From assembly GCF_039541115.1 (NCBI RefSeq), contig NZ_BAABFP010000005.1, positions 480,447 to 544,446 of the forward strand: a stretch of 64,000 nt of DNA. The letters run 5' to 3'. The position numbers were made by a program, and so were the translations under genes. Positions 50,043 to 62,460 of the stretch are shown here, one piece after another. The notes under the pieces are model-generated. The model saw only the letters and a program-made list of their open reading frames with translations. It was not told where the DNA came from and made no database searches. Each line of letters opens with the position of its first letter. Positions within the stretch are counted from its first letter, which is position 1. The DNA is from Angustibacter luteus (GTDB lineage: Bacteria; Actinomycetota; Actinomycetes; Actinomycetales; Angustibacteraceae).

Positions 50043-51016
50043 GCGCGGACGACCTGGGCGCCCTCGGCACCACCGAGGTCCAGGACGCGGTCGCTGCGCT
50101 GCTGGGGACGGCGGTGGGCGAGGGCGCCGCGCTCGGCTGGGTCGAGCCACCGGAGGCGGACGACGTCCGCACGCTGCTCACCGAGCTCGGCGCGGCCGGC
50201 CGCCGTGGCGACGCCGACGTCGTCCTGGCGTGGGACGGTGGCACCCTCGTCGGGTTCGGCTACTGGCGCCGGTACGCGCGGCCGACGCACCGACCGCAGG
50301 CCGACCTCGAACGGGTCGTGGTCGTCGCGAGCCACCGCGGCCGGGGCCTCGGCCGCGAGCTGGTGGACCGGTTGGTGTCCTCGGCCACGGACGCCGGGAT
50401 CGAGACCCTGACGTTGGACGTCCGCGGGGACAACGCGAGCGCCATCGCCCTGTACGAGCGGGCCGGCTTCCGCCGGTACGGCGTGCTGCCCGACTTCGTC
50501 GCGTTCGGCGACCGGCGGTGGGACAAGGTGCTCATGATGCGCCGTCTGCAGGACGGACCCGAGGCCGAGCCCACCTCGCAGCCGCGCAGCCAGTCGGCGC
50601 GCACGGATCATCTGGTGGCCTGGGCGGTGCTGCAACGCGCCGATGGGTGGGTGCTCCTCGGACGCCGCGCCGGCGTCACGTACGGCAACGGCTTGTGGGG
50701 GCTGCCGGGTGGGCACGTCGAGGACCACGAGTCCATGGCCGAGGCGGCCGCTCGCGAGGTCGCCGAGGAGGTCGGGCTGGTCGTCGCGCCGTCCGACCTG
50801 ACGCCGATCGGGGTGACGAGGTACGTGGACGGCGCCATGCGCGGGACCAGCTTCTTCTTCCGGGCGCGGCGCTGGCAGGGCGATCCCGCTGCCGTGAGCG
50901 AGTGCTCCGCCGTCGACTGGTTCGACCCGGAGCGACTGCCGGACGACGCCCTGCCCTGGCTGGCCGCGACCCTGGGTCGTCACCTGTCGGGCGACTGGTT
51001 GGACGACCAGCCCTAA
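50039..51016 (+). CDS. fusion of a GNAT acetyltransferase and a NUDIX hydrolase
   Basis: A 325-residue two-domain protein. Residues 40-165 are GNAT (ERVVVVASHRGRGLGREL, then NASAIALYERAGFRRYG); residues 190-325 are NUDIX with the box GGHVEDHESMAEAAAREVAEEVGL. A short Gln/Ser/Pro linker joins them. The substrates are unknown; the fusion suggests one molecule or paired detoxification steps. The GTG start overlaps the DUF3054 stop. The gene ends convergently with the monooxygenase gene, with a 4-bp overlap. Confidence 0.88.
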   Translation: MSADDLGALGTTEVQDAVAALLGTAVGEGAALGWVEPPEADDVRTLLTELGAAGRRGDADVVLAWDGGTLVGFGYWRRYARPTHRPQADLERVVVVASHRGRGLGRELVDRLVSSATDAGIETLTLDVRGDNASAIALYERAGFRRYGVLPDFVAFGDRRWDKVLMMRRLQDGPEAEPTSQPRSQSARTDHLVAWAVLQRADGWVLLGRRAGVTYGNGLWGLPGGHVEDHESMAEAAAREVAEEVGLVVAPSDLTPIGVTRYVDGAMRGTSFFFRARRWQGDPAAVSECSAVDWFDPERLPDDALPWLAATLGRHLSGDWLDDQP

Positions 51017-53385
51017 CCTCGTTGCGCTCCCGGCCGCCAACGTTCGTGCCGGGTGCCGCGCGGACCCTCGCGGACCAGGTCGAGTCGGGGCGGCGGCCCG
51101 TCGCTGCGACCGGTCTGCGGCGGGCGGCTCCCAGCCTGCCAGGGCAGCGGCCAGCTGGCGCCGCTGCCGGCGTACCCCTGCGCCGCCGCGGCGTGCAGGG
51201 TCCAGCTGGGGTCGTACAGGTGCGCTCGACCCAGCGCGCACAGGTCGGCCCGCCCGGCCAGCAGGATCGAGTTCACGTCGTCGTAGGACGAGATGGCGCC
51301 CACCGCGATGGTCGCGACCTTCGAGCGGTGCCGCACGGCGTCCGCGTACGGGGTCTGGTACGAGCGGCCGAATGCCGGTCGCTCGTCCGGGCTGACCTGG
51401 CCGGTGGACACGTCCACGGCATCGGCTCCGGCATCGGCGAACGCCCGGGCCACCAGGACGGCGTCGTCCACCTCGACGCCGCCGTCCACCCAGTCGGTGG
51501 CCGAGATCCGCACGGTCATCGGTCGCCCGGCCGGCCACACCTCGCGGACCGCTGCGAACACCTCGAGCGGGAAGCGCAGCCGTCCGGCCAGGTCCCCGCC
51601 GTAGCCGTCGGTGCGGTGGTTGGTCAGCGGTGAGATGAAGCTGGACAGCAGGTAGCCGTGCGCGCAGTGCAGCTCGAGCAGGTCGAAGCCCGCCTCGACG
51701 CCGCGCCCGGCCGCGGCCACGAACTGGGCCGTGATCTCGGTCAGGTCGTCTGCGGTCAGCTCGACCGGGACCTGGTTGACGCCCGCCCGGTACGGCAGCG
51801 GGGACGGCGCCACGACCGGCCAGTTCCCGTCGGGCAGCGGCTGGTCGATGCCCTCCCACATCAGCCGGGTCGAGCCCTTGCGGCCGGAGTGGCCGAGCTG
51901 CAGCCCGACCTTGGCGTCGCTGTGGGTGTGCACGAAGTCGGTAATGCGGGTGAACGCCTGGGTCTGCTCGTCGTTCCACAGCCCGCAGCAGCCGGGCGAG
52001 ATGCGTGCCTCGGGGGACACGCAGACCATCTCGGTCATCACCAGGCCGGCGCCGCCGAGCGCCTTGCCGCCGAGATGGGCGAGGTGGAAGTCGCCCGGTA
52101 CGCCGTCCTGCGCGACGTACATGTCCATCGGGGACACCACGATGCGGTTCGAGAGCTCCAGGTCGCGCAGCCGCAGGGGCTGGAACATCGGCGGTCGCAG
52201 CTCACCGTCGCCGTGGCCGCCCTCCTTGGTGTGCCGGGCGAACCACTCATCGGCCGCGGCCACGAACTCGGGGTCACGCAGTCGCAGCTCGTCGTAGGTG
52301 ACCCGGCGGCTGCGGGTCATGATGTTGAACGCGAGCTGCATCGGGTCCTGGTCGAGGTACTGCCCGAGGTTCTCGAACCACTCCAGGCTGGCCTGAGCCG
52401 CCCGTTGGGTGGACAGCACCACCGGCCGGCGCTCGACCTCGTACGCGGCCAGCGCAGTGTCGACGTCCGGTTGCTCGTGCAGGCAGGCGGCGAGGGCGAG
52501 CGCGTCCTCCATCGCCAGCTTGGTACCGGAGCCGATCGAGAAGTGCGCGGTGTGCGCCGCGTCCCCGAGCAGGACGACGTTGCCGCGCCGCCAGGTGCTG
52601 GTGCGGACCGTGCCGAAGCTGATCCAGCGCGAGTTGTTGCCCACCACCCGGTGGCCGTCCAGCAGGTCGGCGAACAGCTCACGCACCTGGGCGATGGCGG
52701 CCTCGTCGGACTCCCCCGGTGCCAGCCCGCTCACGTCCCGGTCGAAACCAGCGGCGCGCCAGACGTCGTCGTGCATCTCGACGATGAACGTGCTGCCGGT
52801 CGCGTCGTAGGGGTACGCGTGCACCTGCATGACGCCGTAGGGCGTCTCGCGCACCACGAACGTGAAGGCGTCCAGCACCCGGTCGGTGCCGAGCCACATG
52901 TACCGGCAGCGGCGGGTCTCGGTGCTCGCGCCGAAGTCCTGCGCCCAGCGCGCGCGGGTCGCCGAGTTCACGCCGTCCGCGGCGACGACGAGGTCGTGCG
53001 TGCGGGAGAGCTCCTCGACGTCCGGCGCCACGGTGCTGGTGAGCAGCCGCACGTCGAGGTCGCGGCAGCGCTGCTGCAGGATCTGCAGCAGCCGCAGCCG
53101 GCTCATCGCGGCGAAGCCGTGGCCGCCGCTGGTGATGACCTCGTCCTTGACGTGGATGTCGATGTCGTCCCAGCGAGCGAACTCGCGCTCCATCGCCGCG
53201 TGCACCACCGGGTCGGCCTGCTCGATGCCGCCGAGGGTCTGGTCGGAGAAGACCACGCCGAACCCGAAGGTGTCGTCCGGTGCGTTGCGCTCCCAGACCG
53301 TGACGTCGTGCGCCGGCTGCAGCGCCTTGACCAGAGCGGCCAGGTACAGGCCGCCGGGTCCACCACCGACGACCGCGATGCGCAT
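51013..53385 (-). CDS. 2-aminobenzoyl-CoA (anthraniloyl-CoA) monooxygenase/reductase, flavoprotein fused to OYE
   Basis: A 790-residue fusion. Residues 1-370 are an FAD aromatic hydroxylase (GGGPGGLYLAALVKALQP at the start; VLLGDAAHTAHFSIGSG near 280). Residues 400-770 are an Old Yellow Enzyme-type FMN barrel (SNRIVVSPMDMY, HCAHGYLLSSFISP). The same fusion in Azoarcus evansii hydroxylates and reduces 2-aminobenzoyl-CoA; salicylyl-CoA 5-hydroxylase is the other annotation. ATG 53385 is chosen because TAGGGT (53416-53411) places transcription after the alternative GTG 53412, and GGCGAGG precedes ATG. The partner ligase is at 58721. Confidence 0.9.
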   Translation of the reverse strand: MRIAVVGGGPGGLYLAALVKALQPAHDVTVWERNAPDDTFGFGVVFSDQTLGGIEQADPVVHAAMEREFARWDDIDIHVKDEVITSGGHGFAAMSRLRLLQILQQRCRDLDVRLLTSTVAPDVEELSRTHDLVVAADGVNSATRARWAQDFGASTETRRCRYMWLGTDRVLDAFTFVVRETPYGVMQVHAYPYDATGSTFIVEMHDDVWRAAGFDRDVSGLAPGESDEAAIAQVRELFADLLDGHRVVGNNSRWISFGTVRTSTWRRGNVVLLGDAAHTAHFSIGSGTKLAMEDALALAACLHEQPDVDTALAAYEVERRPVVLSTQRAAQASLEWFENLGQYLDQDPMQLAFNIMTRSRRVTYDELRLRDPEFVAAADEWFARHTKEGGHGDGELRPPMFQPLRLRDLELSNRIVVSPMDMYVAQDGVPGDFHLAHLGGKALGGAGLVMTEMVCVSPEARISPGCCGLWNDEQTQAFTRITDFVHTHSDAKVGLQLGHSGRKGSTRLMWEGIDQPLPDGNWPVVAPSPLPYRAGVNQVPVELTADDLTEITAQFVAAAGRGVEAGFDLLELHCAHGYLLSSFISPLTNHRTDGYGGDLAGRLRFPLEVFAAVREVWPAGRPMTVRISATDWVDGGVEVDDAVLVARAFADAGADAVDVSTGQVSPDERPAFGRSYQTPYADAVRHRSKVATIAVGAISSYDDVNSILLAGRADLCALGRAHLYDPSWTLHAAAAQGYAGSGASWPLPWQAGSRPPQTGRSDGPPPRLDLVREGPRGTRHERWRPGAQRG

Positions 53386-53410
53386 CCTCGCCTCACCTGC
53401 CTCACCGGTC

Positions 53411-53439
53411 ACCCTATGGCGTCCTGCTGACGTTGGTCA
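53411..53439 (-). promoter_or_regulatory. promoter of the monooxygenase gene (TGACCA-N17-TAGGGT)
   Basis: On the minus strand a TGACCA-like -35 near 53439-53434 and TAGGGT at 53416-53411 are 17 nt apart. The gap to the enoyl-CoA hydratase gene also holds TACGCT (53444-53449) on the plus strand, a likely -10 for that gene. Confidence 0.4.
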
Positions 53440-53481
53440 CCGATACGCTATCCCCTGACGTCGCGACGAGGAGGCCCGCCC

Positions 53482-54309
53482 GTGGGTGCGTTTCGTGGAT
53501 CGGCTCCGCTCACCTCGGACTGGAAGCACTTCCGGACCAGCTGGGACGGCGGGGTGTGCACGGTCACGTTCGACCGGCCGGAGAAGCTGAACGCGTTGAC
53601 CTTCGAGGTCTACGCGGACCTGCGGGACCTGCTGGCCGAGCTGCCGCACCGGGGTGACACCCGGGTGCTCGTGCTGCGCGGCGAGGGGCGTGCCTTCTGC
53701 TCCGGCGGCGACGTGCACGAGATCATCGGACGCACCCTGGAGATGGACCACGCCGACCTGCTGACCTTCACCCGGATGACCGGCGAGGTCGTGCGGCTGC
53801 TCCGGGAGTGCCCGGTACCGGTGATCGCCGCGGTGCACGGGGTGGCCGCGGGGGCGGGGTCGGTGCTCGCACTGGCCAGTGACCTGCGCGTCGTCGAGCG
53901 ATCGGCCCGGTTCGCGTTCCTGTTCACCAAGGTCGGCCTCGCCGGCGCGGACATGGGGGCGGCGTACCTGCTCCCCCGGCTGGTCGGCCTCGGCCGGGCC
54001 AGCGAGCTGCTGCTGCTCGGCGACACGCTGCCGGCGGAGCAGGCGGAGCGCTGGGGCCTGGTGACCCGCCTGGTGGACGACGGCACCGCGAGCGAGGTGG
54101 CCGGGCAGCTCGCGCGCCGGCTGGCCGACGGTCCGGTGCACGCCTACGCGCAGACCAAGGCCCTGCTGTCCCGCGAGCTGGACATGAGCCTGTCCGCAGC
54201 GGTCGAGCTCGAGGCCGTGACCCAGGCGCTGCTGATGACCAGCGCCGACTACCGCGAGTTCTACGAGGCGTTCAGCGAGGGCCGGGACCCGCAGTGGAAG
54301 GGTCGTTGA
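53482..54309 (+). CDS. enoyl-CoA hydratase/isomerase family protein
   Basis: A 275-residue crotonase-fold enzyme. Oxyanion segments are FCSGGDVHEI and GVAAGAGSVLALASDLRV; the second catalytic acid region is GADMGAAYLLPRLVG. It can hydrate, hydrolyse or open CoA esters; beside the anthraniloyl-CoA monooxygenase it is the likely ring-opening or hydration step. GTG 53482 has GAGGAGG upstream. The acyl-CoA dehydrogenase starts 4 bp after its stop. Confidence 0.9.
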   Translation: MGAFRGSAPLTSDWKHFRTSWDGGVCTVTFDRPEKLNALTFEVYADLRDLLAELPHRGDTRVLVLRGEGRAFCSGGDVHEIIGRTLEMDHADLLTFTRMTGEVVRLLRECPVPVIAAVHGVAAGAGSVLALASDLRVVERSARFAFLFTKVGLAGADMGAAYLLPRLVGLGRASELLLLGDTLPAEQAERWGLVTRLVDDGTASEVAGQLARRLADGPVHAYAQTKALLSRELDMSLSAAVELEAVTQALLMTSADYREFYEAFSEGRDPQWKGR

Positions 54310-54313
54310 GCGG

Positions 54314-55495
54314 ATGAGCTGGGACCTCGAACCTCAGCAGCGCGAGCTGGTCACCTGGGCTCGCGCTCGCGCGGTGCAGGATCTGCGCCCGCTCGCCGAG
54401 GCCGGGACGCCGGGCGAGGTGAACCGGCCGCTGCTCCGGGCGATGGGCGAGCTCGGTCTGCTCGGTCGGCTGTTCCCCGGCTACGGCCCCGGCGAGGCGG
54501 CTGGTGCCGCCGGGCCGGGCGCCCACGCGGAGCTGAGCCGGGAGGCCGCGGCGTTCGACCTGTGCCTGCTGCGCGAGGCGCTGGCCCGCGAGTGCACCGA
54601 GGCCGAGACGGCGCTGGCCCTGCAGGGGCTCGGCGCCTACCCGATCCTGCAGAGCGGGACCGACACCCAGGTGCGGCGCTGGCTGCCGGCGGTGGCGTCC
54701 GGCGACGCCGTGGCGGCCTTCGCGCTGACCGAGCCGGAGGCCGGCTCCGATGCGGCCGCGCTCGCCCTCGCTGCGGAGCGCGACGGTGACGGCTGGCGGC
54801 TGACCGGCACCAAGGTATGGATCTCGAACGCGCCTCAGGCGGACGTGTACACGGTGTTCGCCCGGACGACGCCGGGTGCCGGCTCCCGTGGGGTCAGTGC
54901 GTTCGTGGTGCCGGCGGACCGCGCCGGCCTGGGCGGGCAGTCGCTCGACCTGCTGTCACCGCACCCGATCGGTCGGCTCGACTTCGACGGGGTCCGCGTC
55001 GGGCCCGACGAGCTGCTCGGCGAGGTCGACCGTGGCTTCGCCGTCGCGATGCGCACGCTGGACCTGTTCCGGCCCAGCGTGGGCGCCTTCGCCGTGGGGA
55101 TGGCCGCGGCGGCGCTGGACGCCAGCGTGGCGCACGTGCGTCGTCGGGTGGCCTTCGGTGGTCCGCTGGCCGACCAGCAGTCCGTGGCGCACCGGCTCGC
55201 TGAGATGGCGACGCGCACCCAGGCGGCCCGGCTGCTGGTGTACCAGGCGGCGTCGGCCTACGACGCCGGACTGCCAGGGGTGACCTCTCGGGCGGCGATG
55301 GCCAAGCTCACGGCCACGGAGACCGCGCAGTACGTCGTCGACTCCGCCGTGCAACTGCACGGTGCGCGGGCGTTGCAGCGCGGGCACCTTCTCGAGCACC
55401 TGTACCGCGAGGTCCGGGCGCCGCGGATCTACGAAGGTGCCTCCGAGGTCCAGCTCGGCATCATCGCGCGGGAGCTGTTGCGCGACACCGACTGA
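54314..55495 (+). CDS. acyl-CoA dehydrogenase
   Basis: A 393-residue acyl-CoA dehydrogenase with FALTEPEAGSDAAALAL, LTGTKVWISNAPQ and the C-terminal YEGASEVQLGIIARELLRD, where E is in the catalytic base segment. In the anthranilate cluster it may oxidise the reduced cyclic CoA intermediate. ATG 54314 lies 4 bp after the enoyl-CoA hydratase stop. It ends 18 bp before the convergent membrane protein gene of the ABC operon. Confidence 0.9.
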   Translation: MSWDLEPQQRELVTWARARAVQDLRPLAEAGTPGEVNRPLLRAMGELGLLGRLFPGYGPGEAAGAAGPGAHAELSREAAAFDLCLLREALARECTEAETALALQGLGAYPILQSGTDTQVRRWLPAVASGDAVAAFALTEPEAGSDAAALALAAERDGDGWRLTGTKVWISNAPQADVYTVFARTTPGAGSRGVSAFVVPADRAGLGGQSLDLLSPHPIGRLDFDGVRVGPDELLGEVDRGFAVAMRTLDLFRPSVGAFAVGMAAAALDASVAHVRRRVAFGGPLADQQSVAHRLAEMATRTQAARLLVYQAASAYDAGLPGVTSRAAMAKLTATETAQYVVDSAVQLHGARALQRGHLLEHLYREVRAPRIYEGASEVQLGIIARELLRDTD

Positions 55496-55513
55496 TCAGG
55501 GTGGGACCGACGA

Positions 55514-56101
55514 TCACGTGGGCTGCTGCGTGACCAACGAGAGCAGGCCGAGCAGGCAACAGCCCGCCGCGACGAGAAGCTGCGTCGAGTCGGTTCCGCT
55601 CTGCACCAGCCAGTTCCAGGCCTGCGGTGTGCGCAGCGGCTGGGCACTCAGCAGCACCAGGGACGTGAAGGCCGTGACCGCGCACGGGATGGCAGTCGCC
55701 CCAGGCGCCAGGAACCGCAGCGACACCAGGGCCACGGCGGCGAACAGCAGGTAGTTGCGCTCCCCGGCGGCCAGGCTGATCTGACCCGAGTACGCCGCAC
55801 CGGCGGCCGCCAGTGCCGCGCCCGGAAGGAGCACCAGCAGCCCCCAGGTGAGCTGGATCGGCCAGGTGCGTCGGCTGCGCTGCCGCAGCAGGTCTGGCGC
55901 CTCATGATGGACCGCGAAGGTCACGGCCGTGGCCGCCACGACGGGCAGCACCAGCGCCGTCGGCGTGCCGATGCTCTGCACGGGTTGTCCGATGACTGGC
56001 AGGGTGGACCGTCCGCACGTCACTGCGAAGACGACCGTCACGCACCAGCAGTAGGCAGCCTCGCGGACCAGGTGCATGGCCGTCCACGAACGCCAGACCA
56101 T
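55514..56101 (-). CDS. membrane protein of the secreted-protein/ABC operon
   Basis: A 195-residue protein with about six hydrophobic segments (TAMHLVREAAYCWCVTVVFAV, LVLPVVAATAVTFAVHH, QLTWGLLVLLPGAALAAAG, LLFAAVALVSLRFLA, AIPCAVTAFTSLVLL and LLVAAGCCLLGLL). No known family was recognised. ATG 56101 shares a base with the stop of the permease gene, so it is translationally coupled. It is the last gene of the four-gene operon 58613-55514, probably a second membrane subunit or an immunity-type protein. Confidence 0.65.
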   Translation of the reverse strand: MVWRSWTAMHLVREAAYCWCVTVVFAVTCGRSTLPVIGQPVQSIGTPTALVLPVVAATAVTFAVHHEAPDLLRQRSRRTWPIQLTWGLLVLLPGAALAAAGAAYSGQISLAAGERNYLLFAAVALVSLRFLAPGATAIPCAVTAFTSLVLLSAQPLRTPQAWNWLVQSGTDSTQLLVAAGCCLLGLLSLVTQQPT

Positions 56102-57399
56102 CACGCCGCACCGACAGCCAGGTCGAGGTTGCACGACACGCTGCCCCGCACGAACACCTGGAACTGCCGTGGACTCATCGCCCACTGGTTCGGCGGTCGT
56201 CCGTCGAGCATGTCCGACACGGTCTGCTCAGCCTGGACACCCAGCGCGAGGTACCGCTCGAACGTCGGTGTCGAGTCGGGGCTGGGGTCGGTGACCTCGG
56301 GGCAGTCCCTCCCGCCCATGAGCGCCTGCGCCAGCGTCGGGATGCTGATGTGCCGGGCGTCGTCGTCGGGGCCGAGCACCAGCAGCCCGTAGCGATCGAC
56401 GGCACCCGACGGCGCCTCATCCAAGCGAGCCGGGACGACGTCGGCGATGTCGGCGGCTCGAGCCGCCTGGGCGAACGTGGTCACCCGCCGCGCCAGCTGG
56501 GGCAGGGCTGGATCGTGACCGACCATCAGGCAGATCGGTACCGCCCGGTCGTCGGACCCTTCGGCCGAGACGCAGCGCACACGCGTTTCCGCCGTGGTTT
56601 CGACCGGCTGGCCTTGCACGAGCGGAGCCACGGCGTACGTCAGCAGGATCGCGGCCGTGGCCACGGCCAGCGGGGCGCGGGACACCCGGCGCGCCCCGTT
56701 GCCTGACGCGCGGGTCGTCGCCGCCAGCGAGAGCAGGGCGAGGATCCACGCGCCGGCCACGACGCACTGGGCGGCGACCCGCACCGGGTTGAGCTCCAGC
56801 CCCAGCATGTGGTGGGAGGCGATGTCCAGATGAGCCGGTGGCACCACCCGGTCCCCCACGTACCCGAGACCGTAGGTGAGGTACGAGGCGGCGACCAGTG
56901 CGGTGAACGACCCGGTCCGTGCGCCCAGCAGCGCGCCGCAGAGGCAGCCGAGCGCGGCTGACACGCCGAGGACGGCACCTTGCTGCGCCGGTGACGCCCA
57001 CGAGCCGACGCTGACGCCGCCGGTGCCGGCCAGCACACCGATGACGGTGGCGACCGTGAGTGCCTGGGCCACGATGAACGGCAGCAGGGAACCCCACCAG
57101 AGTCGGAGGACGTCGCACCCCGGCCTCGGCTGCGTGTTCCAGGCCGCAGCGCGGTCGCCGGTCAGGGCAGAGCCGGTGTCGTAGGCCGCAACCGCCGCCA
57201 GGACGATGCTGGTGAACAGCACCGCGAGGGACGACCAACCCAGCCCGAACGCCCAGTCCCCGGCCCAGGGCCGGGAGCGGAGGCCGACGGTGAGCAGCAC
57301 CGAGCTCGTCAGCACGACCGGGAAGGCGTACCACGAGATCGAGCTGTGCACGGTGTACCGAAACAGCGTCGACCGGCTGCTCTCTCGACGCTGCGTCAC
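56101..57399 (-). CDS. ABC transporter permease with extracytoplasmic C-terminal domain
   Basis: A 432-residue protein with about seven helices in residues 20-270 and a soluble C-terminal domain of about 155 residues holding four cysteines (VRCVS, ICLMVG, DCPEV, SCNLD), consistent with disulfides outside the cell. The layout is unlike the common ABC-2 permeases, although it is paired with an ABC ATPase. GTG 57399 overlaps the ATPase stop (GTGA). The pairing, and the following small membrane protein, suggest a transport complex for a secreted or toxic product. Confidence 0.7.
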   Translation of the reverse strand: MTQRRESSRSTLFRYTVHSSISWYAFPVVLTSSVLLTVGLRSRPWAGDWAFGLGWSSLAVLFTSIVLAAVAAYDTGSALTGDRAAAWNTQPRPGCDVLRLWWGSLLPFIVAQALTVATVIGVLAGTGGVSVGSWASPAQQGAVLGVSAALGCLCGALLGARTGSFTALVAASYLTYGLGYVGDRVVPPAHLDIASHHMLGLELNPVRVAAQCVVAGAWILALLSLAATTRASGNGARRVSRAPLAVATAAILLTYAVAPLVQGQPVETTAETRVRCVSAEGSDDRAVPICLMVGHDPALPQLARRVTTFAQAARAADIADVVPARLDEAPSGAVDRYGLLVLGPDDDARHISIPTLAQALMGGRDCPEVTDPSPDSTPTFERYLALGVQAEQTVSDMLDGRPPNQWAMSPRQFQVFVRGSVSCNLDLAVGAA

Positions 57400-58157
57400 T
57401 GCCCGGACACCCCGGGCTGCAGGAGGGTCTCGAGGGCGGCGTCGATCCGACTGCGCCCGGCCCGCACGTGCGGCTCGACGGCGATCAACGCCTCGACCGA
57501 CCCCTCGAAGACGGGGCGGCCGTCCCCCAGGACGACGACGTGGTCGGCGAGCACCTGCACGTCCTCAGCCAGGTGGGTGGCCAGGATGATCGTCCGGTCG
57601 CCGGCGATCTCGCTCAAGTGGTCGCGCATGGCCGTGCGCTGGCCCGGGTCCAGCCCCGTCGTCGGTTCGTCGAGGAACAGCATCGGTGGCGAGTGCACGA
57701 GCGCCTGGGCCACGGCGAGCCGGCGCAGCATGCCGCCGGACAGGCTCCGGCATCGCGCGCCCGCCCTGTCCTGCAGGCCGACGGCGGCCAGGGCTGCCTC
57801 GACCGCCGCTGGGCGGGCCGAGGCCGGCACCTCCCGCAGCCAAGCAGCGTGGTGCAGCACCTCGACCAACCGCGCCCGCGGCGGGAAGGCAAGGTGCTGC
57901 GGGACGTAGCCCACGAGGCGCTTGGTGTGACGACCACGACGACCGGGCTCCACCGCGACACCGCCGATGGTGATGGTGCCCGCGTCGGGTCTCCGCTCAC
58001 CGCACACCAGGCGCGAGAGGGTGGTCTTGCCGGCTCCGTTTGGGCCCATCAGCCCGGTGATCCCGCGGCCCGCGGTGAAGCTCAGCGGCCCCAGCGAGAA
58101 CCCCCGTCGGTAGGTGAAGGTCACGTCCTCGACCCGCACGGAGCCGGCCGTCGACAC
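57396..58157 (-). CDS. ABC transporter ATP-binding protein
   Basis: A 253-residue ATPase with Walker A GPNGAGKTTLS near residues 37-47, signature LSGGMLRRLAVAQAL, Walker B LFLDEPTTGLDP and H-loop ILATHL. It resembles exporters of the CcmA/BcrA type. GTG 58157 begins right after the TGA of the secreted protein gene (no gap). It should power the permease at 56101, so the operon encodes one complete ABC system. Confidence 0.93.
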   Translation of the reverse strand: MSTAGSVRVEDVTFTYRRGFSLGPLSFTAGRGITGLMGPNGAGKTTLSRLVCGERRPDAGTITIGGVAVEPGRRGRHTKRLVGYVPQHLAFPPRARLVEVLHHAAWLREVPASARPAAVEAALAAVGLQDRAGARCRSLSGGMLRRLAVAQALVHSPPMLFLDEPTTGLDPGQRTAMRDHLSEIAGDRTIILATHLAEDVQVLADHVVVLGDGRPVFEGSVEALIAVEPHVRAGRSRIDAALETLLQPGVSGQ

Positions 58158-58613
58158 TCAGTACCTCTGCGCGGGGATCGCGACGGTGTGCATGGGGTCC
58201 GCTGCCAGAGGCCGGTCGAGCGCGACGCTCACCAACGTCTTGACGTAGCTGCTCGTCCCCGGGAGCGTGCCGGCCTTCGGGAGTTCGTGCCAGCTGCGGT
58301 GGTTCCACTTCGGCGTCTTCAGCTGCGGACCTGCCCGCCACGAGTGACCATCGGCACTGACGCTCATCGACGCCTGGGCGTAAGCCCCGCCATAGCCGGT
58401 CTGCGCCGCGTAGACGTTCGGGTAGAAGGTGACGCGGTTCGTGGACGTGTTCACGTACCAGGTGCCGTAGGCGCCGGCCGCGTTCTTCCCCTGGTACGAG
58501 GCCCACATGGCCTTGGCCGGACTGGCGCGCCAGGTGTAGGCGTGCGCCGGTGCGGCCGTGACCAGTCCGAGCGCGACCGCGAGACCTGCGGCACGCAGGA
58601 GGTTTCGAAGCAT
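58158..58613 (-). CDS. small secreted protein of the ABC operon
   Basis: A 151-residue protein with a clear signal peptide (MLRNLLRAAGLAVALGLV, cleaved after AHA near residue 24). The mature part of about 127 residues is aromatic-rich and Cys-free (YTWRAS, TWYVNTSTNRVTFYPNVY, MSVSADGHSWR). No family was recognised. ATG 58613 has AAGGGG upstream. TAGCGT on the minus strand at 58657-58652 is a probable -10. The adjoining ABC genes suggest it is a substrate or a secreted partner of the transporter. The lactococcin 972-type operon shape is similar, but the protein does not match. Confidence 0.6.
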   Translation of the reverse strand: MLRNLLRAAGLAVALGLVTAAPAHAYTWRASPAKAMWASYQGKNAAGAYGTWYVNTSTNRVTFYPNVYAAQTGYGGAYAQASMSVSADGHSWRAGPQLKTPKWNHRSWHELPKAGTLPGTSSYVKTLVSVALDRPLAADPMHTVAIPAQRY

Positions 58614-58720
58614 GACTGCCCCTTGAGTTTGGGTGACTACTGACACGGATGACGCTAGTCAGGCGTGTCTCCCAGGAGCAAGACCCGCGCCATGCGAGGT
58701 CTGCATCCCCCGGCGGACCG

Positions 58721-60358
58721 CTACTGCCGCAGGCGGAAACGCTGCAGCTTGCCGGTGCTGGTGCGCGGCAGCTCGGCGACGAACTCGATGCGTCGCGGGT
58801 ACTTGTACGGCGCGATGACCGCCTTCACGTGGTCCTGCAGCGCGCGCACCAGGGCGGGGTCGGCGACGACGTCGTCGCCCAGCACGACGAAGGCCGTGAC
58901 GAGCTGACCGCGGTCGGTGTCCGGCGTCCCGATGACCGCGACCTCGGTGACGTCCGGGTGGCTGAGCAGCGCTTCCTCGACCTCGGGCGCGGCGATGTTG
59001 TAGCCGGCCGAGATGATCATGTCGTCGCTGCGGGCCTGGTACCAGAGGTACCCGTCCTCGTCCTGGACGTAGGTGTCGCCGGTGACGTTCCAGCCGTCCT
59101 GCACGTACACGGACTGACGGTCGTCGGCCAGGTACCGGCATCCGGTCGGTCCGCGCACGGCCAACCGACCCACCTGCCCCGCGGGAAGCGGCGACCCGTC
59201 GTCACCCAGGACGACGGCGCGGTACCCGGGGACGGCGCGACCGGTGGAACCCGGCCGGATGTCGTCGTCCGCGGCCGAGACGAAGATGTGCAGCATCTCG
59301 GTCGACCCGAGGCCGTCGATGATCGCGATGCCGGTGGCGTCGCGAAAGGCCTCCCACGTGGCCGCGGGCAGGTGCTCGCCGGCAGAGACGCAGCGGCGCA
59401 ACGAGGTCAGCCGCTCCGCGCGCCCGGCCGCCAGCATCGCGCGGTAGGCCGTCGGCGCCGTGAAGCAGATGGTGACACCGTGCTCGGCGACCAGGTCCGC
59501 GAGCTGGTCCGGGGAGGCCTTCTCGATCAGCAGGGTGCTAGCGCCGACGCGCAGCGGAAAGACCACGAGACCGCCCAGCCCGAACGTGAAGGCGAGCGGC
59601 GGCGTGCCGGTGAAGACGTCGTCCGGCGTGGGCTTGAGCACGTGCCGGGAGAACGTGTCGGCGTTCGCCAGGACGTCCCGGTGGAAGTGCATCGTGGCCT
59701 TGGGTCGTCCGGTGGTGCCCGAGGTGAACGCGAGCAGGGCGACGTCGTCCGCAGACGTCGCGACCGCCTCGTGCTGGCTCTCGGCCCGCTCCGCCCGGTG
59801 CACCAGGTCGTCCGCGTCGTCCGGGTCGGTCGATCCGTAGGCCACCACCGGCACGCCGAGGTCGGCGGCCCGCAGGTCGTCCAGGAACCGGTGGTCGCAC
59901 AGCGCCAGGTCGAGCCGGGCGATCTCGTGGATCGTGGCCAGCTCGCCGGGTCGCAGCAGCGGCATCGTCGTCACCGCGACCGCGCCGACCCGCAGCACCG
60001 CGAACCAGCACGCGACGATCCAGGGGTTGTTCGGCCCGCGGAGCAGGACTCGTTGGCCAGGACGAATCCCGAGGTCGTCGACGAGCACGCGCGCGGTGCG
60101 CCGGACGCGGTCGGCGAGGCCGTCGTAGGTCCAGCGCGTCCCGTCCGGCGCGAGCAGGCACTCGCGGTCGCCACCGGTCGCCTCGATGGTCGCGTCGAGC
60201 AGCTCGACGGAGCAGTTGAGCTGACTCGGGTACTGCAGCTCGGGGAGGTCGAAGGTCAGCTCGGGCCACTGCTCGCGCGGCGGGAGGTGGTCCCGGCAGA
60301 AGGTGTCGACGTGGGCCGAAGGCCCCAGCGCCGCCGTCCTCGAACCCTGTGCCGTCAC
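58721..60358 (-). CDS. 2-aminobenzoate-CoA ligase (benzoate-CoA ligase family)
   Basis: A 545-residue AMP-forming acyl-CoA synthetase. Core motifs: AFTSGTTGRPKATMHFHRD, then IIDGLGSTEMLHIF, and YLWYQARSDDMIISAGYNI with the C-terminal lysine in RTSTGKLQRF. The family includes 2-aminobenzoate-CoA and benzoate-CoA ligases; the neighbouring anthraniloyl-CoA monooxygenase favours anthranilate. GTG 60358 is chosen since CATACT lies exactly 6 nt upstream; the alternative is a TTG at 60388. It is divergent from paaX-type gene 60443. Confidence 0.87.
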   Translation of the reverse strand: MTAQGSRTAALGPSAHVDTFCRDHLPPREQWPELTFDLPELQYPSQLNCSVELLDATIEATGGDRECLLAPDGTRWTYDGLADRVRRTARVLVDDLGIRPGQRVLLRGPNNPWIVACWFAVLRVGAVAVTTMPLLRPGELATIHEIARLDLALCDHRFLDDLRAADLGVPVVAYGSTDPDDADDLVHRAERAESQHEAVATSADDVALLAFTSGTTGRPKATMHFHRDVLANADTFSRHVLKPTPDDVFTGTPPLAFTFGLGGLVVFPLRVGASTLLIEKASPDQLADLVAEHGVTICFTAPTAYRAMLAAGRAERLTSLRRCVSAGEHLPAATWEAFRDATGIAIIDGLGSTEMLHIFVSAADDDIRPGSTGRAVPGYRAVVLGDDGSPLPAGQVGRLAVRGPTGCRYLADDRQSVYVQDGWNVTGDTYVQDEDGYLWYQARSDDMIISAGYNIAAPEVEEALLSHPDVTEVAVIGTPDTDRGQLVTAFVVLGDDVVADPALVRALQDHVKAVIAPYKYPRRIEFVAELPRTSTGKLQRFRLRQ

Positions 60359-60442
60359 CCCGCCAGTATGACCGTCTCGTGACGACAATCAAGAGACCGC
60401 GACACGAGCGCGTCGTCCCAGGCGGCCCGGTATCGTGCACGC
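60359..60442. promoter_or_regulatory. divergent promoter region, CoA ligase and PaaX genes
   Basis: Minus-strand CATACT sits 6 nt before GTG 60358; plus-strand TATCGT (60431-60436) sits 6 nt before GTG 60443. Between them the inverted repeat CTCGTG (60376-60381) and CACGAG (60403-60408) may bind the PaaX protein. Confidence 0.55.
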
Positions 60443-61297
60443 GTGACGACCGACAGGGCCACGCCAGCGACCCGCCTGCCCTCGCAGCAACCACGCGCCC
60501 TCATCGTCACCGTGTACGGGCTGTACGCCCGCGAGACGGCCGGCTGGCTCGCGGTCGCGACGCTGGTGCGGCTGCTGGACGGGGTCGGAGTCGAGGAGCC
60601 CGCCGTCCGCTCGGCGATCTCGCGGCTCAAGCGCCGTGGCGTGCTCGCCGCCCGGACCCGCGCCGGGGTCGCAGGCTACGAGCTCTCCCCCGCCGGCCGG
60701 GCGATCCTCGCCGAAGGCGACCAGCGGATCTTCCAACGCGTCAGGGCGACTGTCGGCGAGGGGTGGCTGCTGGCGGTGTTCAGCGTGCCGGAGTCGGAAC
60801 GGCGACGTCGCCACCAGCTGCGCGCGCGGTTGACCTGGTTGGGCTTCGGGACCGTCTCGGCCGGGGTCTGGGTGGCCCCGGCGCACCTGAGCGCGGAGAC
60901 CACCGAGGTGCTCGAACGACACGAGCTCACCGAGTACGTCGACCTGTTCCGCGCCGACCACCTCGCGTTCGGTGACCTGCGGGCCGAGGTGTCGCAGTGG
61001 TGGCAGCTCGACGGTCTCGCGGCGATGTACGAGGACTTCACCGCCGCCTTCGCGCCCGTCCTGCGCCGGTGGCAGCGGCGACGGACGACGGACGACGGGG
61101 CCGCCTTCGCCGACTACGTGACTGCCCTGACCGCGTGGCGCCGGCTGCCCTTCCTCGATCCCGGACTCCCCTTGGACGTATTGCCCAGCAAGTGGCCCGG
61201 GGCTCGTGCTGGGCACCTCTTCGAGGGGCTGACGGCGGCCCTGGCGCCAGCGGCCCATCGGCACCTCGCCGCGGTCTCCTCGGGAGACGTGCCGTGA
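60443..61297 (+). CDS. PaaX family transcriptional regulator
   Basis: A 284-residue protein with an N-terminal winged helix (RSAISRLKRRGVLAARTRAG near residues 53-72) and the C-terminal PaaX domain (GWLLAVFSVPESERRRR and the final LPSKWPGARAGHLFEGL). PaaX-type repressors respond to aryl-CoA esters; here anthraniloyl-CoA is the natural guess. GTG 60443 is fixed by a leaderless -10. It faces the CoA ligase across the shared 84-bp region, and converges on the RidA gene 3 bp later. Confidence 0.93.
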   Translation: MTTDRATPATRLPSQQPRALIVTVYGLYARETAGWLAVATLVRLLDGVGVEEPAVRSAISRLKRRGVLAARTRAGVAGYELSPAGRAILAEGDQRIFQRVRATVGEGWLLAVFSVPESERRRRHQLRARLTWLGFGTVSAGVWVAPAHLSAETTEVLERHELTEYVDLFRADHLAFGDLRAEVSQWWQLDGLAAMYEDFTAAFAPVLRRWQRRRTTDDGAAFADYVTALTAWRRLPFLDPGLPLDVLPSKWPGARAGHLFEGLTAALAPAAHRHLAAVSSGDVP

Positions 61298-61300
61298 CCG

Positions 61301-61693
61301 CTACAGGATCGCGAGGCCCTGCAGCTCGACCAGTGCCGCGTCGTCCCAGAGTCGGCTGATCCCGATGCCCGCGCTGGCTGGGTAGTCCGAGCCGACCAGC
61401 CGCCGCCAGACCTGACCGATCTCGCGCGCGTGGGCCCGGTAGTCGGCGAGGTCGACGCTGTAGATCGTCAGTCCGGCCAGGTGCTCCGGGCCTCCTCCGG
61501 CGCCGCGCAGTGCCGTGAGCAGGTTCGTCAACGCCTGCTCGAACTGCTCGACGACGCCGGCTCCGACGATTCGGCCGTCGCCGTCGAGCGCGGTCTGGCC
61601 GGCCAGCACGACGACCCGGCCCTCACCCACCACGGCGTGCGCGAAGCCGCTCGGGCGGGCCAGCTCGGGCGGGTTGACTCGTTGCAGGCTCAT
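61301..61693 (-). CDS. RidA/YjgF family protein
   Basis: A 130-residue Rid-family protein with FAHAVVGEGRVVVLAGQTA at the start and a late YPASAGIGISRLWDDAALVELQG. The usual RidA arginine in a PARS(A/T) segment is replaced by PASA, so imine deaminase activity is uncertain. RidA-like proteins occur in anthranilate-CoA clusters, where removal of the amino group from an enamine/imine intermediate is expected. ATG 61693 overlaps the SDR stop (ATGA). Confidence 0.85.
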   Translation of the reverse strand: MSLQRVNPPELARPSGFAHAVVGEGRVVVLAGQTALDGDGRIVGAGVVEQFEQALTNLLTALRGAGGGPEHLAGLTIYSVDLADYRAHAREIGQVWRRLVGSDYPASAGIGISRLWDDAALVELQGLAIL

Positions 61694-62460
61694 GACTGGA
61701 CCGCTCCTCCGTCGACGTTGATCGCCTGCCCGGTGATCGAGGGGTTGGCCAGGCACAGCAGGACGACGTCCGCGACCTCGTCGGGGGTGACGAGCCGACC
61801 CGTCGGCTGCTTGCGGGCGAGCGCGTCCCGGGCCTGCTCCGGCGTCCGGCCCGTGGCGGCCGCGATCGCGCGCACCGTGGCGTCGGTCATCGGGGTGTCG
61901 ACGTAGCCTGGGCAGACCGCGTTCACGGTCACGCCGTCCCCCGCCAGCTCGGCGGCCGCGGAGCGGACCAGCCCCAGCAGTCCGTGCTTGCTGGCGGTGT
62001 AGGCGGCGATGTAGGGCTCCCCCACCTTGCCTGCCACCGACGCGATGGCGACGATCCGACCGTTGCCGCTCGCCCGCATCGCGGGGACCGCCCGCCGCAC
62101 GCAGCGGAACGGAGCCGTCAGGTTGAGGTCGAGGGTGTGCTGCCAGTCCTCGTCGCTCGTGCGCTCGATCCGGGCCGAGCCCGACGTCCCGGCGTTGAGC
62201 ACCAGGTCGGTCACCGGACCCCAGGCGTCCTCGACCTGGTCGAACACCTGGTCCACCCCGCTCAGGTCGAGCAGGTCCGCGGGCACCACGAGCGTGTCGG
62301 CGGGGCAGGCCTGCGCGGTCTCGGCCAGCTCTGCCGCGCTGCGGGCGGTGAGGGCGACTCGCAGACCCTGGCGGCTCAGTGCGATGGCCACCGCACGTCC
62401 GATCCCCCGGCCCGCACCGGTGACCAGGGCGACGCGGTCCGACGACTCAGGCACAGGCAC
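61690..62460 (-). CDS. short-chain dehydrogenase/reductase (3-hydroxyacyl-CoA-type)
   Basis: A 256-residue classical SDR. Cofactor motif TGAGRGIGRAV, NNAG-type variant NAGTSG, catalytic S (ASVAGK), Y and K in YTASKHG, and a C-terminal PSITGQAINVDGG. It should act in the anthranilate pathway as the alcohol dehydrogenase step, but the exact substrate is inferred. GTG 62460 has CACGGT 6 nt upstream, a leaderless pattern. It is the first gene of the SDR-RidA unit. Confidence 0.92.
   Translation of the reverse strand: MPVPESSDRVALVTGAGRGIGRAVAIALSRQGLRVALTARSAAELAETAQACPADTLVVPADLLDLSGVDQVFDQVEDAWGPVTDLVLNAGTSGSARIERTSDEDWQHTLDLNLTAPFRCVRRAVPAMRASGNGRIVAIASVAGKVGEPYIAAYTASKHGLLGLVRSAAAELAGDGVTVNAVCPGYVDTPMTDATVRAIAAATGRTPEQARDALARKQPTGRLVTPDEVADVVLLCLANPSITGQAINVDGGAVQS

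Follow-up and report, generated by a model that had tools for sequence, protein, structure and literature searches.

The 64,000-nucleotide stretch of the Angustibacter luteus genome that we analysed (hereafter the window) carries an operon of four translationally coupled minus-strand genes, encoding a small secreted protein, an ATP-binding cassette (ABC) ATPase, a permease and a six-helix membrane protein. The operon belongs to a real, conserved family, and no title or opening of an abstract among the papers listed in searches on lactococcin 972 and on Sec-dependent bacteriocins with ABC immunity describes it. We propose, with a probability of about 0.45, that it is a self-contained antagonism cassette in which a Sec-exported, bacteriocin-like protein would be paired with a dedicated immunity transporter resembling LanFEG.

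The secreted-protein gene (58158-58613, minus strand; 151 residues, zero cysteines; tentatively assigned below to class A) starts at an ATG preceded by AAGGGG, the longest open reading frame (ORF) beginning at GTG 58646, and its TGA (58158-58160) abuts the GTG of the ATPase gene (58155-58157). The ATPase frame (57396-58157, minus strand; 253 residues), in which Walker A, the LSGG signature and Walker B are visible, shares 4 bases with that of the permease (56101-57399, minus strand; 432 residues), and the six-helix protein (55514-56104, minus strand) starts at GTG 56104 or ATG 56101, overlying the permease stop. These coordinates bear out the first-pass annotation, which had described four coupled genes with the stop of the secreted protein touching the ATPase start. 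The ORF list holds no regulator gene within the cassette, and consensus searches there found neither a sigma-70-like promoter nor an intrinsic terminator. The secreted protein opens with a visible Sec-type signal peptide, MLRNLLRAAGLAVALGLVTAAPAHA, whose cleavage would leave a mature part of 126 residues (26-151).

The permease, the putative first transmembrane subunit, has seven hydrophobic helices. With helix limits set by hand, its inner loops carry 12 lysine or arginine residues against 3 on the three short outer loops, and this positive-inside count, together with the seven helices, places the 171-residue C-terminal domain (56101-56616, minus strand; residues ~262-432) outside. Cysteines C276, C290 and C423 of this domain, which is the site of DUF7224 in relatives, are invariant in all 30 aligned permeases and C366 is conserved in at least 90%, a pattern consistent with two disulfides. 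Hydropathy gives six helices for the last protein, probably the second membrane subunit of the transporter. Both proteins agree with their earlier description as a permease with a cysteine-containing extracellular domain and a six-helix membrane protein. The accompanying statement that the non-ATPase parts match no family familiar to the annotator also held: in Pfam and NCBIfam, the secreted protein, permease and six-helix protein had no match near any cut-off, the latter two having none up to an expect value (E) of 1 and the secreted protein two chance-like ones (E 0.42 and 0.11). Structure predictions made without an alignment were poor (mean predicted local distance difference test scores of 36.8 and 43.4), and searches of the PDB returned nothing usable.

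The entry point to the family was the ATPase. Used as a single query, the window permease found no relatives in the genome-contig collection or among plasmids, and searches of 198 genomes from the order and 396 from the phylum recovered the query alone; the secreted protein likewise found only itself in the 198. An ATPase search in same-order genomes yielded a top class of matches whose neighbouring genes revealed the family: at L113-L118 and L123 (L and G numbers denote loci and genomes), ATPase, cysteine-bearing permease and multi-helix protein occur together. At L118 (3725-4189) the ATPase frame is shortened, and the adjoining permease and multi-helix frames are open. A profile of seven non-window permeases ranked the window permease first (E 4.7e-4), ahead of every control (20 shuffled sequences, its reversed sequence and seven other ABC permeases). 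Within the order, permease profile A1 had matches in 28 of 297 genomes, including 6 that had contributed to the profile. Within the class, 71 of 276 sampled genomes gave a match to profile A2 at E up to 1e-3, 3 being sources; 61 genomes matched at 1e-7 or better and the other 10 weakly (E >1e-6, mostly partial). The permease is thus not isolated: its family extends over those 71 genomes and carries DUF7224 in some members. An ATPase scan of the genome-contig collection gave 179 relatives, the best 80 being mostly Chloroflexi by title, and none of those 80 loci matched profile A1.

All three transporter genes are conserved. When 10119 six-frame peptides from the window plus related loci were searched, the window permease scored E 1.6e-34 against a profile of the 81 other permeases, the next window peptide reaching 4.1, and the window six-helix protein scored E 1.8e-18 against a profile of the downstream multi-helix proteins of 78 other loci, the next window peptide reaching 0.17. 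A downstream ORF with 4-6 helices lies -60 to +90 bases from the permease stop in 79 of the 83 loci with ATPase and permease, a count that accepts any ORF of 140-290 residues carrying 4 or more helices at this position and may include some chance ORFs. The 83 were drawn from 91 loci, the other eight (L177, L217, L227, L268, L269 and L274-L276) being left out by a script that found no ATPase within its distance limits; in L217, the one checked, an ATPase is present. L122, which has no permease, and L182, on a short contig, were dropped before the upstream survey, and L181 was also omitted from the permease tree, leaving 82 rows.

The gene preceding the ATPase varies across this tree: a zf-HC2 membrane protein in 30 rows, a secreted protein of a recognised class in 26, an unclassified candidate secreted protein in 2, another membrane protein in 2 and nothing recognised in 22. 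The zf-HC2 labels come from a motif script and the secreted classes from inspection by eye; of the 26 class labels, 22 come from the 24 script calls and four (L114, L172, L174 and the doubtful L180) were given by hand, and the secreted candidates of L221 and L259 were left unclassified. Of the 53 loci that lack the zf-HC2 label, 24 have a signal-peptide protein immediately upstream according to a script; of the 30 that bear it, 0 do. The pairing of secreted protein and ABC genes to which the first-pass annotation had drawn attention recurs, with the secreted protein upstream, in many relatives. The secreted partners fall into at least six sequence classes, A-F, hardly linked by profiles, and one profile covers their transporters. 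Class A comprises L115, L166, L253, L217 and, tentatively, the window, with L226 more distant; class B comprises L162 and L170; class C has eight members, which share conserved cysteines; D, E and F are further classes. Because cross-class matches (A-B, C-F and C-E) land on the same upstream position, the classes may form one very divergent superfamily. At L298 (2205-3133), on a Streptomyces plasmid, two small hypothetical genes stand in tandem before the ATPase, and L262 has a second class-F match farther upstream.

With a secreted gene coupled to it and a large, cysteine-conserving outer domain, the transporter is reminiscent of FtsEX, an ABC system that controls secreted partners through an outer domain and whose FtsX has a plan of four helices. 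The window proteins might form such a switch, in which the ABC would transport nothing and would use ATP to control the secreted protein via the outer domain. We consider this improbable, given that a Pfam scan of 24 secreted proteins found a hydrolase or other domain at cut-off in none and that the cassette has two membrane proteins, of seven and six helices, unlike the four-helix plan.

Secreted class and permease clade are stably inherited together. Mapped on a quick permease tree, the secreted classes of 26 loci (label A2 merged with A, and the doubtful B with B) require 6 changes, where the minimum possible is 5, and shuffled labels required a mean of 15.6 and never fewer than 13 in 300 shuffles. 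This result shows co-inheritance and does not imply cognate binding. Furthermore, when secreted profiles were run against 2095 upstream peptides from both strands, all 16 matches outside their own members fell on the sense strand. If the secreted gene were an unrelated neighbour of an ordinary exporter, its absence from many family loci would be expected; that explanation is nevertheless close to refuted by the stop/start coupling in the window, by the constant position and strand of the gene wherever a secreted class is present, by the tracking of class with permease clade and by the sense-strand bias.

Several transporters stand behind what appear to be remains of a partner gene. At L165, L172, L174, L219 and L247, fragments only of the clade's own secreted class precede an intact ATPase and permease, the fragment at L172 being split over two frames; L221 (E 0.054) and L181 (E 0.032) have weaker remnant matches, and the copy at L252 is nearly full length. 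Partner loss with a kept transporter fits orphan immunity and also fits a pump that does not need the secreted protein. Secreted profile A3 matched 5 of 198 genomes, each time beside a transporter; four are its sources and the fifth, G193 (L217), is independent, with the ATPase between secreted gene and permease. Secreted profile A6, for class C, matched 21 of 355 genomes, five being sources, and its other matches are a new cassette in G912 (L322), weak ones at L336 and L337, and the stand-alone protein of G928, the remnant of G898 and the 11 larger proteins described below.

In the mechanism that we propose, the small protein would leave the cell via Sec and act on the surface of competing actinobacteria. 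The ATPase, seven-helix permease and six-helix protein would assemble into a heteromeric ABC-2-like transporter, whose outer domain, presumably stabilised by disulfides, would capture the secreted protein. The transporter would shield the producer by removing the captured protein from the membrane or its target, much as in LanFEG immunity. The first-pass annotation had likened the layout to bacteriocin export and immunity systems. Bacteriocin and immunity make a fair reading of the cassette; export as the main ABC role we set aside, because the secreted protein has its own Sec-type signal, which makes the ABC likelier to serve immunity or as a helper.

A number of observations weigh against this proposal. 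No activity is known, and no toxin motif was found. The genes of any conserved operon would be co-inherited, which is no proof of cognate binding, the broken secreted copies may in part be draft-assembly errors, and 22 of 82 rows had no recognised upstream partner. Partner loss is also not the sole pattern, because a stand-alone class-C-like secreted protein in G928 (L323, 2658-3134), with no family transporter within 7 kb, and a class-C remnant in G898 (L335), with no transporter nearby, do not fit orphan immunity. In 11 larger secreted proteins (L324-L334, all in family f105) the N-terminal part is a class-C-related domain, which therefore serves other ends too; Pfam places a CAP domain (PF00188) at the end of the two scanned, and each of the 11 carries at least one of two CAP-like motifs. 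The match of the window secreted protein to the profile of the other class-A members is weak (leave-window-out E 0.11, or 0.017 with L226), and a sister clade of 31 permeases has no secreted partner at all.

The tentative assignment of the window to class A combines that weak match with the placement of its permease, and the long window branch brings some risk. In both leave-window-out runs, all matches at E <1 among the 10119 peptides were secreted genes of the system, and a third run, with L253 left out, brought in one unrelated frame of L219 at E 0.9. The window permease lies inside a clade with the other class-A rows with support of 95 on the quick tree, and on a careful tree it lies in a 98/98 clade of eight rows that contains all four A-labelled rows.

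In the sister clade, 30 of the 31 permeases stand behind a zf-HC2-labelled membrane protein. A zf-HC2 membrane protein with an extracytoplasmic function (ECF) sigma factor is a usual layout for envelope-stress regulation, and Pfam found an ECF sigma factor in both sister loci scanned, L113 and L159, the zf-HC2 match in L113 being sub-threshold. Sister operons (L113, L159, L164, L173, L220, L222 and others) run zf-HC2-labelled protein, ATPase, permease and, usually, multi-helix protein. They share with the window the permease family, the ATPase and mostly the downstream multi-helix protein, and differ in having regulatory genes in place of the secreted protein. Because such genes precede the sister clade, the strongest rival to our proposal is an ABC pump for envelope stress or antimicrobial resistance, with a secreted helper that would bind an antimicrobial or a cell-wall component and present it, or signal, to the outer domain. 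The many family transporters without a secreted gene and the occurrence of the class-C domain as a module of larger proteins speak for such a pump as well. We judge it less likely than our proposal: a helper would be expected to stay with its pump, yet mere fragments remain in five loci; the secreted proteins split into at least six classes; and the window cassette lacks a regulator gene. The first-pass annotation had named, as what would refute it, a remote-homology match to a well-described transporter family with no secreted partner. The sister clade partly provides this and keeps the resistance-pump reading alive.

The cassette is patchily present across genomes, and its site in the window can be compared with that of a same-genus genome, G001. 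Segment 55483-58723 (minus strand), which amounts to the four genes, is missing there: the flanks, which align at 80% and 76%, correspond to 111643-116032 and 116113-119109 of one contig, with 80 bp between them. Either gain or loss of the cassette at this site would explain the difference. Among the repeats listed, none of at least 11 bases pairs the two ends of 55440-58760. Two secreted classes occur at separate places in each of four genomes (G005, G619, G758 and G797). Relatives of the L262 permease occur on seven Streptomyces plasmid records, and in the three that we opened the permease, six-helix and small proteins are annotated as hypothetical; plasmid searches with the L223, L170 and window permeases gave zero matches. 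Of six flanking proteins scanned, five are metabolic or regulatory and one was without a match. Surrounding the cassette is an aromatic-CoA degradation cluster (51013-61756), uninterrupted in G001, with a salicylyl-CoA 5-hydroxylase-like fusion (NF006101) and an enoyl-CoA hydratase (NF006107) above cut-off, an acyl-CoA dehydrogenase, and a benzoate-CoA-ligase-like enzyme and a PaaX-like regulator below cut-off.

A broader interpretation, which we offer tentatively and hold more loosely than our proposal for the single cassette, is that the family represents a large uncatalogued class of actinobacterial protein weapons. These would be Sec-exported proteins of 100-150 residues, in many classes, each served by a dedicated ABC immunity pump of three parts, in which a cysteine-bonded outer domain recognises the class; cassettes would move between chromosome and plasmid and leave orphan pumps behind. 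If the antagonism reading is right, some of the transporters, which occur in between about a fifth and a quarter of the class genomes sampled (61-71 of 276, counting both operon types), would guard undescribed antibacterial proteins. Name-based searches would miss such proteins, because no model catches the secreted, permease and six-helix parts. DUF7224 would also acquire a role open to testing, namely outer recognition in a pump for immunity or resistance.

Through the permease outer domain, one part of the family touches a Pfam domain of unknown function, DUF7224 (PF23866), a term that our literature search found in no paper; a weapon reading of the family is plausible. A PF23866 search of 20 genomes gave 10 places in 9 genomes, and 8 of these correspond to the C-terminal region of permeases found by A2, for example in G539 (L262), G728 (L270), G895 (L273) and G905 (L265). 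Only 2 of 30 A2 members match PF23866 (best E 0.0032), the window permease does not match it at E up to 1, and its genome (G000) has no match. By profile, the window permease belongs to the DUF7224 permease family as extended by A2 (E 1.6e-34), and it carries the four cysteines of that extended family.

Peptidase-containing peptide exporters fuse the ATPase to a membrane domain and a C39 peptidase; the window ATPase is a stand-alone protein of 253 residues with no peptidase domain among its Pfam matches, unlike this plan. The lactococcin 972 cluster (lclA, lclB and an ABC transporter) is described as combining a small signal-peptide protein with a membrane protein and an ABC transporter (PMC11161930), and lactococcin 972 is described as not post-translationally modified (PMC9964109). 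The window cassette shares this combination and differs in that its membrane proteins have no Pfam or NCBIfam family. Membership of the lactococcin 972 family is rejected on sequence grounds, the family model being unmatched at E up to 1 by the window protein and, in Pfam, by the 24 secreted proteins.

LanFEG, which confers lantibiotic immunity, combines one ATPase with two different membrane proteins. The window cassette departs from it in lacking modification genes, in a permease of seven helices plus an outer domain, and in a partner that would be a 126-residue mature protein with a Sec-type signal. Its ATPase matches the lantibiotic protection model TIGR03740 at E 1e-25, yet scores 90.7 bits against a cut-off of 309.75, with 21 other models ranking higher. 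The common ground lies in the plan: in the window, too, a single operon encodes an ATPase alongside two dissimilar multi-helix membrane proteins, which would assemble into a transporter of the same general make-up.

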